Origin: Chloroflexota bacterium | GTDB taxonomy: Bacteria > Chloroflexota > Dehalococcoidia > Lucifugimonadales > UBA3495 | DNA: 34,440 nucleotides | Direction of reading: 5' to 3' | Assembly: GCA_009840135.1 (NCBI GenBank) | Contig: VXOH01000169.1 | Location: 1-34,440, forward strand | In this document: positions 23,559 to 32,858 of the stretch, one piece after another | How the letters are laid out: the number at the start of each line of letters is the position of its first letter | Numbering within the stretch: position 1 is the first letter of the stretch | The notes under the pieces: generated by a model | Databases searched by the model: none | The model's input: the letters and a program-made list of their open reading frames with translations, nothing else | What the model was told of the DNA's origin: nothing | Translations under genes and position numbers: made by a program

Positions 23559-24146
23559 CTACTCCTCACCGGATTTTTCGTCCTCACCGTCAATGGCCAG
23601 GGACCGGTCCACGGCCTTCAGGTATGGCTCAAGTTCTCCGTCATCAGTCTGCGTGCCACCGCTGGACAGTTCCGGAGAACCGTCGCCGCGGCCGGTCATG
23701 GCTTTCAGCACGAGAAGCCCTCCCGCCAGGGCGGCGAGGATAATGACCACCGGCAGGGTCCAGGCCAGGAGGTTCAGCCCAGACTTGGGCGGGGAGGCCA
23801 GTACGTTCTGGCCGTAACGGTCGGCGAAGTAGTCCAGGATTTCCTGGCGGCTGGCCCCTTCCGCCAGCATCTCGCGCACCCTCTGCCGCATCTGGCGGGC
23901 CAGAGGGACCTGGGCCTGGTCAATGGACTCAGCAGGACAGACGGGGCACATCAGCATCCGGTCAATGGCCTGAGCCTCAGATTCGTCGTAACCTTGACCT
24001 GGGCCCTGGGCCAGGGATTCCCCAATCCACATCGAGAAGGCCAGGGCAAGAACCAGGGCGATGATGATAAAGGTGGGGCGGGCCCTGAAAAAGACAAAGG
24101 GCAGGCTTGATACCTGCCCCCCGCTGCAATCTTCGTTACTTCTCAA
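23559..24146 (-). CDS. ccmH: Cytochrome c maturation protein CcmH/CycL
   Basis: A 195-residue membrane-anchored thiol protein that handles the apocytochrome CxxCH cysteines during heme attachment. The active-site pair is C67-x2-C70 in LMCPVCPAESIDQ, matching LRCxxCQNQSI. It is followed by the family helix bundle ARQMRQRVREMLAEGASRQEILDYFADRYGQNVLASPP. Hydrophobic segments at about 25-43 (signal/anchor) and 125-147 bracket the domain. The C-terminal tail (about 150-195) is acidic and longer than in short CcmH forms. It lies 21 bp after the cytochrome c lipoprotein gene, at the end of the respiratory operon, which fits a job in maturing the operon's own multiheme and monoheme cytochromes. No other ccm genes are in the window. 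Confidence 0.87.
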   Translation of the reverse strand: MRSNEDCSGGQVSSLPFVFFRARPTFIIIALVLALAFSMWIGESLAQGPGQGYDESEAQAIDRMLMCPVCPAESIDQAQVPLARQMRQRVREMLAEGASRQEILDYFADRYGQNVLASPPKSGLNLLAWTLPVVIILAALAGGLLVLKAMTGRGDGSPELSSGGTQTDDGELEPYLKAVDRSLAIDGEDEKSGEE

Positions 24147-24167: not shown

Positions 24168-24710
24168 CTAACATCCCTCCGGATTGGCGCCCTGCAGGCA
24201 ATCAACCACGTAGCGGGCCACCGCGTCTATCTGCTCCGGAGAAAGCAGCTTGGAGAAGCTGGGCATCACCGTTAAACCGCCAACCATGATGTCGGTAACG
24301 CCGGCGGTGTCCTTGGCGATCATCGTCGGGTCGTCCAGGGCGGTCAGGTCAGGATTGAATGACGGCTGATAACCATAGTCGTCAATCATTTTGACCAGCA
24401 CGGGACCATCACCCTTGCCCAGCGGTCCGTGGCACATTGTACAGTTAATCTCGTAAAGCTCGCCGCCATCGTGATTGGAAGCCTGGACCGTGTAGAAGGG
24501 TACAGCGCTGGCGGGCACGCTCAACCGGGGCGGCTCATGCGCCTTGTAGGAAGGCTGGTAATGCATTTCGTAGAAGACATCCAGCGGATAAGAACCCTGG
24601 GAACAACCCAGAGCCACCAGGCCAACCAGCATGGCCAGCGCCCCAAGGCAGGCCCTGTTCCGGCGCCCCTTCGACAAGAGATTCATCAATTTTCCAGAGA
24701 GTTTGCTCAT
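24168..24710 (-). CDS. actE: Monoheme lipoprotein cytochrome c, ActE-like
   Basis: A 180-residue cytochrome c with a lipoprotein signal (hydrophobic 20-35, lipobox VALG before C36). It has one heme site, C90-x2-C93-H94 (CTMCHGPLGKGDGP), with M149 in GGLTVMPSFSKLLSPEQI as the likely sixth ligand. The pre-heme part, YEMHYQPSYKAHEPPR, resembles ActE of alternative complex III, where ActE is a lipid-anchored monoheme cytochrome that passes electrons towards an oxidase or soluble carrier. The frame is open to 24785, but ATG 24710 gives a normal signal peptide. It sits between actD and ccmH, the expected place after actD. Confidence 0.85.
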   Translation of the reverse strand: MSKLSGKLMNLLSKGRRNRACLGALAMLVGLVALGCSQGSYPLDVFYEMHYQPSYKAHEPPRLSVPASAVPFYTVQASNHDGGELYEINCTMCHGPLGKGDGPVLVKMIDDYGYQPSFNPDLTALDDPTMIAKDTAGVTDIMVGGLTVMPSFSKLLSPEQIDAVARYVVDCLQGANPEGC

Positions 24711-24799
24711 TTTTGGCTGCCTTCTACCGGCGCTTACCGGTCTCCGGCCAATTCCGTATCCTGTAGAACTTTTCGCAGCTGCCAATCCGGCTCGCCGAG

Positions 24800-25306
24800 C
24801 TATTGCTTCTTGACGTCCACCGCGCCCGTCTGGCCAAATACGCCTTCCACCTCGCCGTGCTGGGTCTCCTCGGTGTTGACCAGCACCCCGATGTAACCCT
24901 CGGTGATACGGTTGTCATAGAGCCCGGCCTTAAGTTTAGGCAGTCGGGACTCGAAGACGATTCCCAGGACAGTGAAGAGGATGGCGCCCAGCATGGTGCC
25001 CTCGTAGCACACCACGGCCATGGGCGGTATGGACAAAATGGGCTTGCCTCCCGTCACCAATGGGTAGGCCACCTGGGTCATCGAGGTAAGCAGAATGCCC
25101 GAAGTCAGCCCCAACAGGGCGCCAATGAAGGGAAAGATATAGAGCTTGTGGGGCTCCTCCCTTTCTCCGAAGGCGCCTTCCGGATAGGGCGTATCCGTCA
25201 GGAAATCCACATCGGTTTCGGGAATGCCGGCGCGCCTCAGGCCGTCGCCGGCGTCGGCGGCGGAATTGGCGTTGTCGAACAACCCCAATATTGGACGTCT
25301 TGCCAT
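24800..25306 (-). CDS. actD: Alternative complex III membrane subunit ActD (DUF3341)
   Basis: A 168-residue protein of the DUF3341 family, the ActD subunit of ACIII. The soluble N-terminus (GLFDNANSAADAGDGLRRAGIPETDVDFLTDTPY) is followed by two membrane helices: about 54-80 (IFPFIGALLGLTSGIL) and 92-116 (PPMAVVCYEGTMLGAILFTVLGIVF). The C-terminus is soluble and charged. ActD contacts the ActC membrane core and lacks cofactors. ATG 25306 is preferred over the upstream frame because it has AGAGAGG upstream and matches the family start (RPILGLFDN). The order actC-actD-actE is the classical one. Confidence 0.88.
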   Translation of the reverse strand: MARRPILGLFDNANSAADAGDGLRRAGIPETDVDFLTDTPYPEGAFGEREEPHKLYIFPFIGALLGLTSGILLTSMTQVAYPLVTGGKPILSIPPMAVVCYEGTMLGAILFTVLGIVFESRLPKLKAGLYDNRITEGYIGVLVNTEETQHGEVEGVFGQTGAVDVKKQ

Positions 25307-25419
25307 AACTTTTAACCTCTCTGCCTTTACCTCGAAGCCCCTTGCGTCTGCGGCAACGGGGACCAATTCTGTGAGCCTGATTTTCCCTTGTTTAAGACTG
25401 CCGGCCTAATCTTCACGGC

Positions 25420-26796
25420 CTAATCTTCACGGAATGTTGCCGGCACTGTCCTGCGTCCGATCTGAACCTGGGTTTTCAGGACGTCCCCTTCCTTCACGTC
25501 ATAGAGGGGCACGAGGGGGAACACCCTGCTGAATAACAGCATCAGCATCGTCACCAGGGCGAAGGTGGCCGCAACGATAATAATCTCAAATATGCTGGGC
25601 CTGTAGTCCGCCCACACAAAGGTGAACAGCTGCTTGTTGATCAGGCCGGGAACGATGATCAGGAACCTTTCTAGCCACATGCCTATGTTTACGGAAATAC
25701 AGGCGATGGACATTATCCACAGGTTCCGCCGCCACGCCCGGCTAAGCCACAAAATCACCGGAATGAAGTAAGTAGTTATTACGAAAACGATGAACCACGC
25801 ATTGTAGGGCCAGTAAGTAAACTGGGTCTGTCTGACCATCAGTTCGTCCGGCTCCCGACCATACATACCGAACAGTATTTCCATTACCAGGAAGTAGAAC
25901 CAGCCAGTGGCCACCACTATGAGCAACCGCCCCAGCGCGTCAATATGCTCGTGCCGGATATAGTCCTGCCAGCCGTAGCACCAGCGCAGCAGAATCAGGG
26001 CGAAGGCCACGGCGGACACACCGGAGTGGACGGCGCCCACCACGAAGTAGGGAGCGAACACGGTGGAATGCCACGACTTTACCGATGCGGCCATACCGAA
26101 GTCCCAGGACACTATGCTGTGCACCGAAACGAACACCGGCAGAATCAGGGCCGACAGAAGAACTCCAGCCACAATCTGCAGCTTCCACTGCCGGGCGTTG
26201 CCTTCCCAGCCCATGGCGAGAACGCTGTAAACCCGGTGGGCGATACCCGTCGTATGGTCGCGCAGCACCGCGAAATCGGGAATCAACGCGATGATTACAA
26301 ACAGGGTGCTGGAGGTCAGGTAAGTCAAAATTGCGCTGGGGTCCCAGACCAGCGGAGTACGGATGTTGGGCCAGATCCCCCGGGCAAAATCGTAGGGGAA
26401 TACCCAGTACAGTATGCGCCAGGGCCGCCCGGTGTGGACGATGGGCATAATCATCGCCGTCATCAGGGAGAAGAGGGTCAAAACCTCGGCAGCTCTGGTG
26501 GCGGGACGCCGCCATTCGGCCTTGGCCAGGCGCAAAATGGCAGAAAGCATCACGCCGGCGTGGCTGATACCAATCCAGAAAACGAAGTTGGTGATAAAGA
26601 ATCCCCACGCCACCGGGCGATTGAGGCCCGTAACGCCGAGACCCCGGTTGACCATTATGCCGATTGCGATAGCCGCAATCAGCAGGACCAGCCCCAGGAC
26701 AGTCACCACCGGCCAGAACCACCTGGGGGTGTCCAGGATTGACCGGAGCAGATCCCGGTTCATCTCTCTTGTGCTTAGGACTCTGCCTTCCTGCAT
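25420..26796 (-). CDS. actC: NrfD-family quinol-oxidising membrane subunit ActC
   Basis: A 458-residue integral membrane protein with about ten helices, closely matching ActC. Hallmarks are GLGVTGLNRPVAWGFFITNFVFWIGISHAG (about 50-80), EWRRPATRAAEVLTLFSLMTA, the VHTGRPWRILYW loop, and LVWDPSAILTYLTSS. NrfD subunits bind quinol near the periplasmic face and may conduct protons. ATG 26796 has an AGGAG 7 nt upstream. It lies after a second NrfD-family gene with a 175-bp gap that holds a small palindrome. The C-terminal tail (about 430-458) is soluble. Confidence 0.9.
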   Translation of the reverse strand: MQEGRVLSTREMNRDLLRSILDTPRWFWPVVTVLGLVLLIAAIAIGIMVNRGLGVTGLNRPVAWGFFITNFVFWIGISHAGVMLSAILRLAKAEWRRPATRAAEVLTLFSLMTAMIMPIVHTGRPWRILYWVFPYDFARGIWPNIRTPLVWDPSAILTYLTSSTLFVIIALIPDFAVLRDHTTGIAHRVYSVLAMGWEGNARQWKLQIVAGVLLSALILPVFVSVHSIVSWDFGMAASVKSWHSTVFAPYFVVGAVHSGVSAVAFALILLRWCYGWQDYIRHEHIDALGRLLIVVATGWFYFLVMEILFGMYGREPDELMVRQTQFTYWPYNAWFIVFVITTYFIPVILWLSRAWRRNLWIMSIACISVNIGMWLERFLIIVPGLINKQLFTFVWADYRPSIFEIIIVAATFALVTMLMLLFSRVFPLVPLYDVKEGDVLKTQVQIGRRTVPATFRED

Positions 26797-26971: not shown

Positions 26972-28402
26972 TTACTCGGGCTTGGCCAAGACCAGGTATT
27001 CGCCTCGCACGAAGGTATCCATTTTCTGGTACAGCGTTCCTTCCTTGACCTCCCAGATGGAGATCAGGGGAAAGACCTTGGCGGACACCAGGTAAACCAG
27101 CGCAACGATGCCCAGCCCACCCAGAACCATGAAAATGTCCCAGATATCGGGCAGCACGGCGGCGGGCACATGGGAAAGCGCAAACTCGTAATGATTACCG
27201 GTGTTGAACGCCGCGGCGAAGGTCCTCAGGTTGAAGAGCAAAGCTCCCACCAGGGCCGACAGCCCCGCCAGGCTGGGCCCCCAGGCGCTTCGGCGCAGGG
27301 GATTCCAGATAAGCATCAGGAACGGCACCAGGAAGCTGAACAGCATATTGGCCAGGAACAGGGGCAGATAGGGCTGGGTAAACAGGTACTTCAGGATGTT
27401 CTGTTCCACTTCCAGCCGGCCGTACCAATAGGTGATGAAAAATGCGAACAGGTGATAAGTCCAAAGGAGGGTCAGTCCCAGCAGAATCTTGCTGGCCGAC
27501 CAGAAGGGCGCCTTCCCCAGGTAACCTTCATATCCGCCCCATTTCCGCATGATGAACAAGACGATGAGGATCAGACCCAGGGAGGTCTGGAAACTCATTA
27601 CCGTGTACATGGGGGGCAGCACCGAATCCTTCCAGAAGGGAACCATGCTCATGGCGAATTCGGTGATGAAAATGAACTGGACGAAAATTATCAGCATGAA
27701 GTAGAACGCGCCCAGAAGTGCCAACCCGGCCTTCTGATGGTTCCACTGCCGCTTTGTCCCGTACCACCATCCCGCCAGGGCCGTGTACAAGCCCCTTCGG
27801 AATCCCGTTGCCGTCGCCCGCGCCTGGGCCATGTCGGGAGTGGCCGACAACCACAGAATGGCGACGCTGCACAGGGCCAGCCCCACGAAGCACAGCAGGT
27901 CCCAGGTGTAGGGCGCGCCAATGGGCACCTCGAACCAGAGGGTCCGGCGAACCTCAAGGTCCGTACCCTGAGCATCGGGATTCTTGATGGGAGGCATGGC
28001 CAGCAGGAGGGGAATGAACAGGACTATGTTCACCACACCGACGATGGCGAACAGCTCGGACACCCGGGAAAGGGGCCGCCGCCAGTGGCTCTTAGTGAAC
28101 CGGAAAGCGCAGGCCACCAGGGGAGCCGCCCCGGTAACCATGAAGACAAAAGAAAAGATGGCGGCGTAATAGCCCCAGGGACCGGGACTGCCGAAACCAT
28201 CCGAGGATGCACGGATGGCAAACCCGACAACTCCCAAGGCAGCCAGAACAGCCGCTATTCCCAGGGCCAGCTTGTAAACGGAGGGCATGGCAAAGGTCTT
28301 GCCGGATACGTCGGAGGTTACCTCCTCCCTACGGGGAAAAACCCACATTCCAGCGTGTTGCCCGTGCCCACCGCCCTGGTGATGTTCAGCGCTACTAGCC
28401 AT
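26972..28402 (-). CDS. Second NrfD-family membrane subunit, ActF-like
   Basis: A 476-residue integral membrane protein with about ten helices. It is related to the neighbouring ActC in plan but clearly diverged: HWRRPLSRVSELFAIVGVVN corresponds to the EWRRPATRAAEVLTLFS segment of ActC. The N-terminus carries a short His/Gly-rich stretch (EHHQGGGHGQHAG). ACIII of other bacteria contains two NrfD-type subunits, ActC and ActF, but ActF usually follows ActE; here this one precedes ActC and follows the iron-sulfur subunit, so it could be ActF in a new place or a PsrC/QrcD-type anchor. ATG 28402 (8-bp overlap with the ferredoxin gene) was chosen over TTG 28435. Confidence 0.8.
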   Translation of the reverse strand: MASSAEHHQGGGHGQHAGMWVFPRREEVTSDVSGKTFAMPSVYKLALGIAAVLAALGVVGFAIRASSDGFGSPGPWGYYAAIFSFVFMVTGAAPLVACAFRFTKSHWRRPLSRVSELFAIVGVVNIVLFIPLLLAMPPIKNPDAQGTDLEVRRTLWFEVPIGAPYTWDLLCFVGLALCSVAILWLSATPDMAQARATATGFRRGLYTALAGWWYGTKRQWNHQKAGLALLGAFYFMLIIFVQFIFITEFAMSMVPFWKDSVLPPMYTVMSFQTSLGLILIVLFIMRKWGGYEGYLGKAPFWSASKILLGLTLLWTYHLFAFFITYWYGRLEVEQNILKYLFTQPYLPLFLANMLFSFLVPFLMLIWNPLRRSAWGPSLAGLSALVGALLFNLRTFAAAFNTGNHYEFALSHVPAAVLPDIWDIFMVLGGLGIVALVYLVSAKVFPLISIWEVKEGTLYQKMDTFVRGEYLVLAKPE

Positions 28403-29186
28403 GATGCCCGCCGCTGCTTCCCTTGTTGGGATCAACCTTCTTCAGGTATATAACGTTGGGTTTGGTGTTCATATCCTCCAGCATCCGGTATCCGCGGGTC
28501 TGGCGCTCGCTCTCGTGATGGATGTTGTACCGGTTAACGTCGTCGAAATAGGGTTTTATGGGACTCTGAGCGTCGTTCTGGTCGCCGAAGGTCAATGCGT
28601 TGGTGGGGCACGCCTGCACGCATGCCGGCATGTGATTACCCGCCCGCAGGGTGCTGTCTCCCAGTTCGCCGCCGTTGCGCCGTTCCACCTGCAACTGACC
28701 GCGACGAAGGCGCTGGATGCAGAAGGTACACTTTTCGGTGATACCGCGAGTCCGCACCGTTACGTCGGGATTGAGCTGGTTCTGCAGCCGCTCCGGCCAG
28801 TTGGGGTGCCAGTAATTAAAAAATCGCACCTGGTAGGGGCAGTTGTTGATGCAATACCTGGTGCCGACGCACCGGTTGTAAAGCTGGACGTTCAGGCCCT
28901 CGTCGTTGCGGTAGGTGGCGAAAACCGGGCACACCGGCTCGCAGGGGGCATTCTCGCAATGCTGGCAAAGGATGGGGATAAAGCGCGCCTTGATATTGGG
29001 ATAATCCCCTTCCCAGTACCGCTCTATCCGGATCCATTCGTAGGCCCGGTTCTGGAGAAAAGCGTTCTTGTCATTTATGGGAAGGTTGTTTTCCACCTGG
29101 CAGGCAACCACGCAGGCCTGACAGCCGTTGCAGCGGTCCAGGTCAACCACCATTCCCCACTTGTGATCAATTCGACTAGTTACCAT
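28395..29186 (-). CDS. Iron-sulfur electron-transfer subunit, ActB2/QrcC-like
   Basis: A 263-residue soluble ferredoxin-type subunit with four cluster sites: C19/C22/C25/C29, C74/C77/C82/C86, C106/C112/C116 with T109 in place of a Cys, and C153/C156/C189/C193. The missing Cys in site three (CVGTRYC) fits one [3Fe-4S] and three [4Fe-4S] clusters, the set reported for the ActB iron-sulfur domain of ACIII. It should pass electrons between the NrfD subunits and the cytochromes. No export signal is seen, as expected if it is carried by the twin-arginine subunit. In classical ACIII this domain is fused to the molybdopterin-type domain as ActB; here it is a separate gene 81 bp after it. The C-terminus ends in a GSSGGHHG tail. 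Confidence 0.88.
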   Translation of the reverse strand: MVTSRIDHKWGMVVDLDRCNGCQACVVACQVENNLPINDKNAFLQNRAYEWIRIERYWEGDYPNIKARFIPILCQHCENAPCEPVCPVFATYRNDEGLNVQLYNRCVGTRYCINNCPYQVRFFNYWHPNWPERLQNQLNPDVTVRTRGITEKCTFCIQRLRRGQLQVERRNGGELGDSTLRAGNHMPACVQACPTNALTFGDQNDAQSPIKPYFDDVNRYNIHHESERQTRGYRMLEDMNTKPNVIYLKKVDPNKGSSGGHHG

Positions 29187-29267: not shown

Positions 29268-31568
29268 CTAATGGTCAGTCACCAGGATAACGGCCTCACC
29301 CGGCGTATGCCCGATCTGCCTCGCCGGGAAGATACCCTCAAACTTGGCAATCTTCAGGCTCTCTCCGGTAGGCGCCACCTGGGCCATGTGACCCGCCCAG
29401 GCCAGACCTCCGTTTTCCGTCAGGTGCGCTGCCGAAAGCAGGTCCAGGGCGTTGGAACTCTCCCTGGCATCCCCGCCGGTGGCGTAGTCCGAACCGCTGC
29501 GGCGACCCTGGCCCAGGGGAACGGCCACGACCCTGGGAGGCAACGCCGGATTCGGGTACAACACGCCCCTTATACTGCCGCTGCCGGTGGTAACGCTGAC
29601 GATATCTCCCTCGCGCAACCCCATTGCCTCGGCGGTATGGCTGTTAAGCTCGACCCACGTCTGCCACGCAACCGTAGTGACCGGGTCGGGCAGGCCCTGC
29701 ATCCAGGGGATGTGGGCATTGCGCCCGTCCAGCAACGAATTGTGCAGGAAGGGCTGCAGATAAAAGTCGCCGCTGCCGGCGAAGGAAGGCTGTCCTCCCT
29801 GGGCAGCGATTGTATTCAGCAAGCCCGCAGGAGCCGACGGCGTGGGCCCCGTGGCGCTTTCGTCCCACCAGCCGCCCTGCTGGAGCATCAGGTTCCACAA
29901 CTCACCGGCGGAACCGGCATCCCGGGAAGTGCCCCTGCCGTAGGCAAACAAGGTCTCGGTAGTCTGCTTGAGGGCCGCCTCCACGCTGGCCCAGGGCAAT
30001 GCCTCTTCCTGCCCCATTTCCTGGGCTACGCTCAGAAGCAGGTCGCCAAAGCTGCGCGGGTCCAGGTCGCTCAAAGGATTGACCACCGGCTGTTGAATGC
30101 CCATGGCGGGGTAGCCGGGACCGGGATCAGGTATATCGTCGCCCCAATCTTCGAGGAAAACACGGTCGGGCAAAATCAGGTCGGCCATAACGGTGGTTTC
30201 GTCCATGAAGGAGGAGAAACTGACGATAAACAAATCGTCCCGGTTAAGGGTATTCTCAAAACCCAGGGAAGCGGGCAGGCCATGCACCGGATTGGCTTCA
30301 TGCACCATGACCAACCGAGTGTTGCCGCCGCGAATTTCGCTGGCCACCTTGCTCCAGTCCGCCATGCTGCCCACCGAGGCCGTAGCCGGCAGGCTGTCCA
30401 GGGGCGCGCCGGGATTGAACCGCAGGCCGCCGTTGCTGCCCACACTGCCCACCAGGTAGTTGAGGGCGTAAATTGCCATCAGATTGAACTGGCCGTTGGT
30501 GTGGGCTCCGGCGCTTCCGCCACCCAGAGCGATGCTAGGGCCATGATGGGCGAAATTGTTGGCCAGGTCGCGAATCTTCTCTGCCGCCGTCTTCTCCTCG
30601 TGAAGCTGCTCGGGTATTCCCAGCTGGGACGCAATGTTCTCAGGGGCAAAGGCTGCCAGCGCCGCCGCGCCCTGGCCTCCGGTCAATGCATTCACATCCA
30701 CGCCTTCGGCCTGGTAGCCCTCGCTGATAATCACGTAGGCCAGGCTGAGGGCAAGGTAACCCTCCATGCCCGGAGTTATCGGCAGCCACTCATCAGCATT
30801 GGCCGCCGTCATCGAGAATCGGGGGTCAACGTGGACCAGGTAGCCTCGGCTGCCCCCGGCCTGACGTTCACTACCCTGGCGAAACTCGCCGTAGGCTGTG
30901 GCCAGGCGGGTGGAAGACCCCCAGGTGGAGAGAAAATCAGCGCCGAAGGAGATGACGTAGTTGGCGTTGGCAAGGTCGAAATCGGGCAGGCAGCTCTCTC
31001 CGAAGACGCCGTTGACGGCCGCCCGGTAGGTCGTATCGTCCATGGAGTCGAAGCACAGGTGGCGTCCGCCCACCGATGTGGCGAAACGTTCGGCGATCAT
31101 GCCCAGGTGACCCCGCAGCGGCTCGGTTATCAGAACCATTCCATTGCCGCGGGCCGCCAGTTCCCGCTTAAGAATGTCCAGGGCTTCCGGTTCCCATTGA
31201 ATGGACCGGTATTGCCCGGACCCCCGGGGACCCGTGCGCAACATGGGACCTTCAATCCTGTCGGGATGATACAGGGCCTGCAGCCCCGCCTCGGACCGGG
31301 GGCTCTGCTTGCCCATGTTCACGGGGTACTTGGGGTTTCCCTGGATCTTCTTGGCGCGACCTTCCATAACCCGGACAATCACGCCCTCGCCGTCGGTGGC
31401 ATTCCGACCCAGGGTGGCGTACCAATTATCCCGCCCTTTCACCAGGTCCTCAGGCAGGGACCGGGGGCTCTGGACGCTTAACTCATCATCCTGGATGACG
31501 TCGCAAGCCACCGCTCCTATGGCGGAGAGGCCGGCCCAGGCCAGGAAATTGCGCCGTGTCAGTTTCAT
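29268..31568 (-). CDS. Molybdopterin-oxidoreductase-like subunit, ActB1/QrcB-like
   Basis: A 766-residue protein of the molybdopterin oxidoreductase fold. The N-terminus is a twin-arginine signal (TRRNFLAWAG with R5-R6; C22 in AVAC could be lipidated), so it is exported folded together with its iron-sulfur partner. The mature part begins ENWYATLG-like (DNWYATLGRNATDGEGVIVRV) and contains the fold landmarks ISFGADFLSTWGSSTRLA and VHEANPVHGLP. The usual N-terminal [4Fe-4S] CxxC motif is absent, and no Cys/Sec metal ligand is obvious, in line with ActB/QrcB proteins that carry the fold without molybdenum. It should be a structural partner of the iron-sulfur subunit. Confidence 0.86.
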   Translation of the reverse strand: MKLTRRNFLAWAGLSAIGAVACDVIQDDELSVQSPRSLPEDLVKGRDNWYATLGRNATDGEGVIVRVMEGRAKKIQGNPKYPVNMGKQSPRSEAGLQALYHPDRIEGPMLRTGPRGSGQYRSIQWEPEALDILKRELAARGNGMVLITEPLRGHLGMIAERFATSVGGRHLCFDSMDDTTYRAAVNGVFGESCLPDFDLANANYVISFGADFLSTWGSSTRLATAYGEFRQGSERQAGGSRGYLVHVDPRFSMTAANADEWLPITPGMEGYLALSLAYVIISEGYQAEGVDVNALTGGQGAAALAAFAPENIASQLGIPEQLHEEKTAAEKIRDLANNFAHHGPSIALGGGSAGAHTNGQFNLMAIYALNYLVGSVGSNGGLRFNPGAPLDSLPATASVGSMADWSKVASEIRGGNTRLVMVHEANPVHGLPASLGFENTLNRDDLFIVSFSSFMDETTVMADLILPDRVFLEDWGDDIPDPGPGYPAMGIQQPVVNPLSDLDPRSFGDLLLSVAQEMGQEEALPWASVEAALKQTTETLFAYGRGTSRDAGSAGELWNLMLQQGGWWDESATGPTPSAPAGLLNTIAAQGGQPSFAGSGDFYLQPFLHNSLLDGRNAHIPWMQGLPDPVTTVAWQTWVELNSHTAEAMGLREGDIVSVTTGSGSIRGVLYPNPALPPRVVAVPLGQGRRSGSDYATGGDARESSNALDLLSAAHLTENGGLAWAGHMAQVAPTGESLKIAKFEGIFPARQIGHTPGEAVILVTDH

Positions 31569-31645: not shown

Positions 31646-32308
31646 CTACTTGTGGCAGATGGTGCAGTCGGTGCCAACGTTCAACTCGCGGTGGCAGTCC
31701 ACACAGGTGCCCATTTTAAGTGACTGGCCCTGCGTAGGCTGGACCTCGGTCATGCTGGCCACGTCGCCGTGGCACACGGAACAGGCCTGCTGGGTAGTCA
31801 GGGGCAACTGCCGGGGCTGTCCATCCCCGACGGGCATGGCTACCGTCCGAGCCTGACCTTCGGTCAGGAACCGGATATGGGCTTCGTGGACAAACCGGAC
31901 GTGGTCAGGAATCCGGTGAACGCGCTCCCAGTCAATAGGAGCGTCGTCGTTAAACTTGTCCACCACCAGTTGCATCTGCGCCTGGTTGGCCGTGGACGAA
32001 ACGACCAGATTTTCAGGGTTAATCTGCTTGTGGCAGAAGACGCACTGCTCAACTGCCGGCACCGTTGCCGCCGCACCCTCGGTTACGTTGCGGTGGCAGA
32101 ACTCGCAGGAAATACCAACGCCCCCTTCCTCAACCGTGCCGGCGTGAACCGTATGGGGGAACTCGATGGGCTGGGGAGGGGCATTGCCCAATCCGAAAGG
32201 TGGATTGGAAAACCAGGAAATGGCAATGATAGCAACCAGGAAACCCACAACGCCGGTGACGACCAATCCAACTAAAGCCAGTGGAATTATGTTTGCGCTT
32301 GGCCTCAT
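31646..32308 (-). CDS. actA: Pentaheme cytochrome c, ActA-like
   Basis: A 220-residue cytochrome with five CxxCH sites: C68/C71/H72, C89/C92/H93, C176/C179/H180, C202/C205/H206 and C215/C218/H219. One N-terminal membrane anchor spans about 7-33. Additional His residues (for example H52, H55, H131, H141 and H144) can serve as sixth ligands. Five hemes and a membrane anchor match ActA of ACIII, which takes electrons from the iron-sulfur part. The QrcA type has more hemes, which argues for ActA. ATG 32308 is preferred to TTG 32317. The last heme site ends only one residue before the C-terminus. Confidence 0.88.
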   Translation of the reverse strand: MRPSANIIPLALVGLVVTGVVGFLVAIIAISWFSNPPFGLGNAPPQPIEFPHTVHAGTVEEGGVGISCEFCHRNVTEGAAATVPAVEQCVFCHKQINPENLVVSSTANQAQMQLVVDKFNDDAPIDWERVHRIPDHVRFVHEAHIRFLTEGQARTVAMPVGDGQPRQLPLTTQQACSVCHGDVASMTEVQPTQGQSLKMGTCVDCHRELNVGTDCTICHK

Positions 32309-32456
32309 CGGCGCCAAAACCTGCCTATCTTTTAGTATCCGGCCGGACCTTCAATCCGGCGGGGCCCCGGTGAAAACCGGGAACCCTGTCTTTCAAATCC
32401 AAGCCCCAACAAACAAAAGGGAAGCGCCCGTAAATAGAGCAGCTTCCGTCAATAAC

Positions 32457-32753
32457 CTATACGAGAAACCTGTCGTAAATGTTGCCCAGCATTTCCGGGG
32501 TGAGCAGCATTACGGAAACCCAGAAAATCCAGGCTACCACCCACACCGCCACCGCGAACACCACCATGGGCCAGCGCAGTCGAATAAAGGCCGGTGGAAG
32601 ATGGCCCGTCTGTACCGCCGAAGGAATAAACGCAAGGGCCGTCATGAGGGTAAAGGCGGTGATGATAACCAATGGAAAGGCTATCCAATACATAGTGAGC
32701 CAATTGGAAATATTGACCCAGTCTATGTTGGTTAAAGCGTTCGGATCGCCCAT
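32457..32753 (-). CDS. Small membrane protein, first gene of the respiratory operon
   Basis: A 98-residue protein with two long hydrophobic segments (about 20-46 and 61-85) joined by a short basic-polar loop (HLPPAFIRLRW). It is not a family I can name. ATG 32753 follows GCAGGA, and a promoter lies 80-105 nt upstream, so it is the leading gene of the actA-to-ccmH transcript. This position suggests a small accessory subunit of the complex, as small membrane subunits have been described for ACIII. That link is inference from location only. Confidence 0.65.
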   Translation of the reverse strand: MGDPNALTNIDWVNISNWLTMYWIAFPLVIITAFTLMTALAFIPSAVQTGHLPPAFIRLRWPMVVFAVAVWVVAWIFWVSVMLLTPEMLGNIYDRFLV

Positions 32754-32831
32754 CGGTCCTGCCTTGGATCGGTTACCTGGTCTATTACCGGGGCGTCTCC
32801 CAACCCTCCCCGGTCAGCAAACCTAGTGAAA

Positions 32832-32858
32832 ATTATCACAGTCTAATGGGGGTGTCAA
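32832..32858 (-). promoter_or_regulatory. Promoter of the ACIII-like operon
   Basis: Minus strand: perfect -35 TTGACA (32858-32853), a 15-bp spacer and GATAAT (32837-32832) preceded by TGT, that is an extended -10 (TGn). The short spacer is offset by the extended -10. Transcription would start near 32825, about 70 nt before the ATG at 32753. Confidence 0.5.

Follow-up and report, generated by a model that had tools for sequence, protein, structure and literature searches.

The window, as we call the whole stretch of 34,440 nucleotides analysed here, comes from a Chloroflexota bacterium and carries on its minus strand a gene cluster for alternative complex III (ACIII), a respiratory complex. 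The cluster is headed by the gene of a membrane protein that we named P98, a 98-aa protein encoded directly before the ACIII gene actA. The genes of the cluster, the promoter elements in front of it and two further features are listed in Table 1.

Table 1. Features of the P98 locus and of the adjoining ACIII cluster, in the direction of transcription
Feature	Position	Strand	Remarks
-35 element TTGACA	32858-32853	minus	exact in 41/41 loci with the downstream element
TGTGATAATTTTCAC, extended -10 (TGTGATAAT) overlapping a GTGA-N6-TCAC dyad	32840-32826	minus	conserved
GATAAT (-10) inside TGTGATAATTTTCAC	32837-32832	minus	15 bases after TTGACA
P98 gene, predicted two-helix membrane protein, 98 aa	32457-32753	minus	ATG start; first in ACIII cluster
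Weak hairpin and T-run, tail CTTCCCTTTT	32441-32425		between P98 and actA
actA, pentahaem cytochrome c	31646-32317	minus	TTG start as listed; ATG at 32308 possible
actB1, molybdopterin-oxidoreductase-like part of ActB	29268-31568	minus	Pfam
actB2, Fe-S (4Fe-4S) part of ActB, separate gene	28395-29186	minus	Pfam
NrfD1, second NrfD-like membrane subunit	26972-28435	minus	Pfam, PDB, tree; co-occurs with P98
actC orthologue, NrfD-like	25420-26796	minus	E 8.4e-87 to 6lod_C
actD	24800-25366	minus	PF11821, E 3e-29
actE, monohaem cytochrome c	24168-24785	minus	Pfam; named from its place in the cluster
CcmH-like cytochrome c biogenesis gene	23559-24146		Pfam; after actE

Besides the ActC orthologue the cluster encodes a further NrfD-like protein, NrfD1. 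Its best match in the PDB was the ActC chain 6btm_C with an E-value of 1.5e-14, and ActF was matched at 8.3e-6; the ActF chains of 6btm, 6f0k and 8k9e, the last one belonging to a PDB set which we take to be Chloroflexus ACIII, were among the matches. In a tree of 32 NrfD proteins the ten ActC proteins of P98 clusters formed one clade (100/99), and ten NrfD1 proteins (100/100) and three ActF proteins (100/100) each formed a clade of their own. The nine other ActC proteins did not constitute a single clade in the best tree. Judged by these comparisons NrfD1 is a separate NrfD paralogue, which is only distantly related to ActC and ActF. As a minor observation, five genomes of genus g2 (G005, G020, G030, G032 and G034) have two adjoining ActD-like genes in the same cluster.

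P98 occurs once in the window's own genome. A single-sequence search at E<=0.01 in 59 genomes from the window's genus, family and order, its own among them, yielded a P98 match in 51, and reading the sequence upstream of actA with a profile search brought the number to 54; in G040, G045 and G050, the three genomes gained in this way, actA is immediately preceded by a divergent homologue. The divergent P98 sequences of five loci (L051, L054-L057) were matched with E-values of 2.8e-12 to 5.2e-24 by a profile built without these five. As for the non-carriers, the sequence ends at or inside actA in G002 and G004, and G021, G027 and G046 give no ActA match. All 54 order-level genomes with readable sequence at this place had P98 directly before actA, the initial annotation having suggested a check of whether homologues always adjoin actA in related genomes. 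A second P98 match in G023 (34 residues with one internal stop, E 0.007) was not counted; no ActA was found in the stretch that was read of its contig (L060).

Pairwise comparison of the window and three close relatives gave dN/dS values of 0.09 to 0.25 for P98, so that P98 is a protein under purifying selection, and on these sequence data it is confirmed as a real coding gene. The length ranged from 96 to 116 aa in the 52 members of alignment A1, which comprises 52 of the 54 P98 sequences, L039 and L051 being left out because of undetermined bases. In the divergent P98 proteins of L055 and L056, which are 116 and 110 aa long, the helices are separated by a longer stretch.

AlphaFold2, run with 52 sequences, predicted a two-helix hairpin with helices at residues 9-48 and 54-89 and a mean pLDDT of 89.9. 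P44 and S45 were invariant in 47 diverse P98 members, and D3, P4, W12 and R60 were present in at least 90% of them. The loop is basic with a mean of 2.81 K+R and 0.83 D+E, and the N-terminus is acidic with a mean of 0.49 K+R and 2.72 D+E. According to the positive-inside rule, by which basic loops are cytoplasmic, this distribution of charge would place the loop in the cytoplasm and both ends in the periplasm.

P98 of the window lacks a haem-binding CXXCH motif, and no known family was recognised for P98 in Pfam, NCBIfam or the PDB. The window's protein had no NCBIfam match, and its Pfam match to DUF996 (E 0.013; 16.1 bits versus a cut-off of 31.3) was rejected as a generic match of membrane helices. 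With the 52 members of A1 at an E-value of 0.1 no family listed matched more than five sequences, the best E-values being 0.00077 in Pfam and 0.00015 in NCBIfam; these scattered matches of a few members were likewise considered generic. Photosystem I 4.8 kDa protein (E 0.26) and complex I subunit C1 (E 0.6) were dismissed as chance matches. Foldseek found no PDB match for the P98 model at E<=0.001 (best 2.9). VIA-align returned coiled coils, ESCRT-III and designed bundles with Z up to 8.8, as is common for helical hairpins, and no ACIII chain was among the best 50 matches listed. The first description of the frame as an uncharacterised 98-residue membrane protein is borne out by these analyses.

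Directly before the P98 gene the initial annotation had placed a promoter whose -35 is perfect and whose -10 is of the extended type. With its spacer of 15 bases it escaped a standard sigma-70 scan, which requires 16-18 bases. We searched 54 upstream regions, including that of the window, and found TGTGAYANTTTTCAC exactly in 34, with one mismatch in 4 and with two mismatches in 3 of them. The resulting 41 of 54 loci compare with 0.0 per 54 loci, at the same tolerance, in dinucleotide-shuffled sequences (20 rounds); the remaining 13 loci had no copy within two mismatches. Exact TTGACA stands before GATA at all 41 loci with a spacing of 15 (33 loci), 16 (7 loci) or 17 bases (one locus), the shuffle rate for a -35 at 5/6 or better being 3.3%. 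The element was present in 29 of 31 loci of the window's family and in 12 of 23 elsewhere in the order. When the window was aligned with the three relatives closest to it, TTGACACC and TGTGATAATTTTCACTAGGTTTGC stood out as conserved blocks, the last base of TGTGATAATTTTCACTAGGTTTGC being variable. Conservation of this extent indicates that the annotated promoter of P98 is real, its -35 being perfect as described.

The further claim that no other strong promoter precedes actA was upheld as well. The sigma-70 scan of the window found none between the P98 gene and actA, where a transcript start would have refuted the initial annotation by its own account. In addition, the element occurs once per locus, upstream of P98, in the 40 loci holding it in exact form, a number that includes second copies of the window's stretch (L080) and of three others (L031-L033).

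The -10 is overlapped by a dyad that, in the window, matches 9 of 10 positions of TGTGA-N6-TCACA, the consensus of CRP/FNR-type operators. Because the dyad lies over the -10, its conservation may be conservation of the promoter. The own genome (L125-L142) has 19 sites within two mismatches of TGTGATANTTTTCAC, one exact site among them, versus 3 for the reversed pattern. Thus related elements may exist elsewhere in the genome, and the sites may represent a promoter class or a regulon. For these bacteria the conserved promoter provides a handle on the control of respiration.

The gap between P98 and actA is about 140 bases long. In the window it contains the weak hairpin with a T-run of Table 1, which we rejected as a terminator splitting the operon: the fold z-score of the gap was -1.59, and no counterpart of hairpin and T-run was present in an alignment with the three closest relatives. 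A first gene behind a conserved promoter, followed by a gap with a weak hairpin, is reminiscent of a leader peptide gene or a co-transcribed passenger, which would serve another process or solely the regulation of the operon. We regard such a role of P98 as very improbable, because the protein is under purifying selection, because no strong copy without ACIII genes was found in the order, class and phylum searches (see below), and because family f119 has kept P98 as the last gene of its cluster.

The latter is evident from a comparison of gene order in 105 clusters, i.e. the window, 95 fetched stretches and 9 earlier ones. They represent 105 of 129 distinct P98 genomes; those omitted include split or cut clusters and near relatives. 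In all 105 the genes of the cluster share one strand. The order P98-A-B1-B2-NrfD1-C-D-E was found in 102 clusters, one cluster was truncated, and in the remaining two, which belong to one genus of family f119 (L104, L105), the order is A-B1-B2-NrfD1-C-D-E-P98. Here P98 has given up the leading position without being lost from the cluster, which speaks for a tie to the complex, not to the promoter. Coordinates in three genomes (G282, G321, G447) also suggest P98 as the last gene of the cluster.

In the clusters read P98 is next to actA except when it has moved to the far end. One may therefore think of P98 as a subunit whose partner is the anchor helix of ActA together with the ActB arm, in which case the tie to NrfD1 would only mark a clade. 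The conserved ends of P98 are predicted to be periplasmic, and a partner is conceivable since the anchor helix of ActA of Rhodothermus marinus is described as isolated in the membrane (PMC5928083). Yet ActA is also part of ACIII clusters that do not contain P98, and we consider ActA an improbable partner.

The distribution of P98 was determined in genome sets at the level of order (59 genomes), class (197) and phylum (301), which overlap in part and consist of Chloroflexota, mostly with incomplete genomes. At class level 38 genomes had a strong P98 match. ActD was present in 38 and ActA in 37 of them, and in 37 of 37 the P98 gene precedes the ActA match at a distance of 19-351 bases, both lying on the same strand. 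In G069 P98 appears as two overlapping fragments, no ActA was detected and a cut ActD is on another contig. Six class-level genomes have ACIII without P98; in all six the contig stops short of the position where P98 would be expected, and the other contigs of these genomes yielded no P98 match. At phylum level 47 strong P98 matches were obtained; 43 of these genomes have ActD, and the remaining four have ActA beside P98. Weak matches were dropped at class level (G070, G107, G237; E 0.002-0.007) and at phylum level (G107, G345, G378, G516 and second matches in G088 and G290; E 0.005-0.01). Of the genomes with weak matches G378 and G345 have ActD, and G378 has ActF in addition.

Homologues located mainly away from ACIII genes, which the initial annotation had named as refuting its view, were thus absent: 38 of 38 class-level and 47 of 47 phylum-level genomes with P98 have ACIII genes. 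The data support P98 as a protein dedicated to ACIII. The proposal of a small subunit or an assembly factor, which had been derived from the leading position in the operon, is partly supported in this way, the dedication to ACIII resting on more than position.

ActD was found in 94 of the 301 genomes at phylum level, and 51 of these 94 are without P98. Thus P98 is a marker of one ACIII type, not of ACIII in general, and since types without P98 exist the core reaction can do without it. The type is characterised by NrfD1. NrfD1-like proteins, for which the limit was set at the weakest match counted (E<=1.5e-54; next genome 1.8e-40), were present in 46 of 301 genomes, and P98 and NrfD1 occurred together in 44. 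Three genomes had P98 without NrfD1; in two the contig ends in ActA (G303) or ActB1 (G488), and in G416 the contig has 999 bases beyond the part of ActB1 that was read, which is too short for ActB2 and NrfD1. In the two genomes with NrfD1 and without P98 (G412, G506) the contigs end in ActB2. The missing partner was not found on other contigs in these five cut clusters.

Classical ActF was searched with a query from L114 and counted at E<=1e-20, which gave 30 of 301 genomes. No ActF at this limit was detected in any genome with P98 or NrfD1, and P98 occurred in 0 of the 30 ActF genomes. Matches of the ActF search with E-values of 7e-10 to 7e-9 in G282, G321, G356, G364, G391 and G447 were the NrfD1 genes and were not counted. 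None of P98, NrfD1 and ActF was present in 20 of the 94 ActD genomes; six of those 20 were read (L115, L117, L118, L156-L158), and their order is A-B1-B2-C-D-E, only one NrfD being encoded in the stretch. At order and class level the ACIII with P98 and NrfD1 was the only type seen where the cluster was readable that far. In family f146 one genome (G458) has P98 and NrfD1 in a genus otherwise equipped with ActF; this MAG is 8% contaminated, so transfer and contamination are indistinguishable.

Taken together we think it probable, with moderate confidence, that P98 is a dedicated, hitherto undescribed small membrane subunit of the version of ACIII that has NrfD1 instead of ActF. From the gene data we infer its presence in the complex, a contact with NrfD1 and a stabilising role. 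P98 would be made first, from the conserved promoter of the cluster. Its two helices would span the membrane so that both ends face the periplasm and the basic PS...R loop faces the cytoplasm. Most likely P98 would pack against the NrfD1/ActC membrane module, and its conserved termini would come to lie under the periplasmic ActA/ActB arm. In this position it could hold the NrfD1/ActC module together, and it would be present because that pairing needs P98; among the genes, NrfD1 fills the place of the absent ActF. In a wider and more tentative proposal, to which we give somewhat less than even weight, the clusters represent a further ACIII architecture of Chloroflexota in which ActF was replaced by NrfD1 and P98 is the adaptor required by the swap, both having joined once and stayed together since. 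As the clusters with P98 and NrfD1 form one clade, the link between the two could also be due to common descent alone.

Coevolution of P98 with six partners of the cluster (ActB1 was left out) was analysed by mutual information and mean-field DCA in 104 clusters, the effective sequence number for the concatenations being as few as 61-84. Mutual information assigned 11 of the 25 top pairs to NrfD1 (6.8 expected) and 21 of the 100 top pairs to ActE (9.7 expected), and the largest DCA outlier, with a z of 11.1, was with ActC. Of the 10 top pairs in an intra-P98 control 4 agreed with the hairpin register, the base rate being 0.135. However, with each of the six partners the top inter-protein score was higher than the average of the ten strongest intra-P98 scores, which is a sign of noise, and for this reason no partner is claimed.

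Small two-helix membrane proteins often act as assembly or stability factors. P98 might be such a factor for NrfD1-type ACIII and remain outside of the finished complex, assisting e.g. in the insertion of NrfD1 or in its pairing with ActC. Co-occurrence and synteny fit a factor as well as a subunit, and the first position in the operon means early synthesis. On the other hand, the near-universal retention of P98 with this type of ACIII, its narrow size range of 96-116 aa and the conservation of residues at both termini point to a definite position in a structure. We consider an assembly factor the less likely reading, though one that fits nearly as well, and favour P98 as a subunit.

The comparison with known systems is based on PMC8552683, PMC8076601, PMC5928083, PMC9316378, PMC3150298, PMC5826079 and PMC3971608. 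In the listed titles and abstract openings of the literature searched, most of it other than subscription literature, no description of a P98-like protein was found; one Chloroflexi genome paper names ActABCDE. Solved structures of ACIII are those from Flavobacterium (6BTM), Rhodothermus (6F0K) and Roseiflexus (6LOD/6LOE) (PMC8552683). A further PDB set comprises 8k9e and other entries. ActG of Chloroflexus and Rhodothermus ACIII is described as a small accessory membrane protein without redox cofactors (PMC5928083, PMC9316378). P98 is alike in being a small membrane protein without redox cofactors, in being encoded in an act cluster and in not being part of all ACIII. Yet ActG has one predicted transmembrane helix (PMC5928083) as opposed to the two predicted for P98, and it is encoded last in actABCDEFG of Chloroflexus, whereas P98 precedes actA. 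Comparison of the P98 profile with a single sequence, the 112-aa ORF after actF in L114 that was taken as ActG from its position only, gave an hhalign probability of 0.1.

ActD has two transmembrane helices and is reported to be exclusive to ACIII (PMC5928083). In both respects it resembles P98, but the P98 clusters carry their own ActD. The ActD family PF11821 was not among the families listed for the P98 query or among the 25 most matched families of the 52 A1 members, and hhalign detected no similarity between P98 and the ActD of the window. ActH of Rhodothermus marinus, initially listed as a hypothetical protein, is an additional subunit of ACIII (PMC5928083). It is a periplasmic three-helix bundle with a long loop, in contrast to the predicted membrane hairpin of P98. 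For the ACIII structure of Roseiflexus castenholzii (6LOD/6LOE), a search with the P98 profile in a library without chains of unknown residues gave no match to 6LOD at E<=10. This structure reportedly contains an extra subunit, possibly another small membrane subunit of Chloroflexota ACIII.

The membrane module of P98-type ACIII would differ from known ones by another NrfD and by an extra two-helix protein. Proton half-channels have been proposed for ActC and ActF (PMC5928083), and an ACIII with a different second NrfD would thus be a natural test of which parts energy conservation requires. P98 may serve as a short, specific marker for NrfD1-type ACIII and is a concrete target for structure work.

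Upstream of P98 and on the same strand lies a DUF418 gene. In 54 order-level loci, searched mostly over 1.5-3 kb upstream, and in three loci of 20 kb, a DUF418 gene at this place was confined to the window (L001) and one relative (L003/L031, the same contig). At the other end actE is followed by the CcmH-like gene, and in a profile search a CcmH match closed 42 of the 105 P98 clusters.
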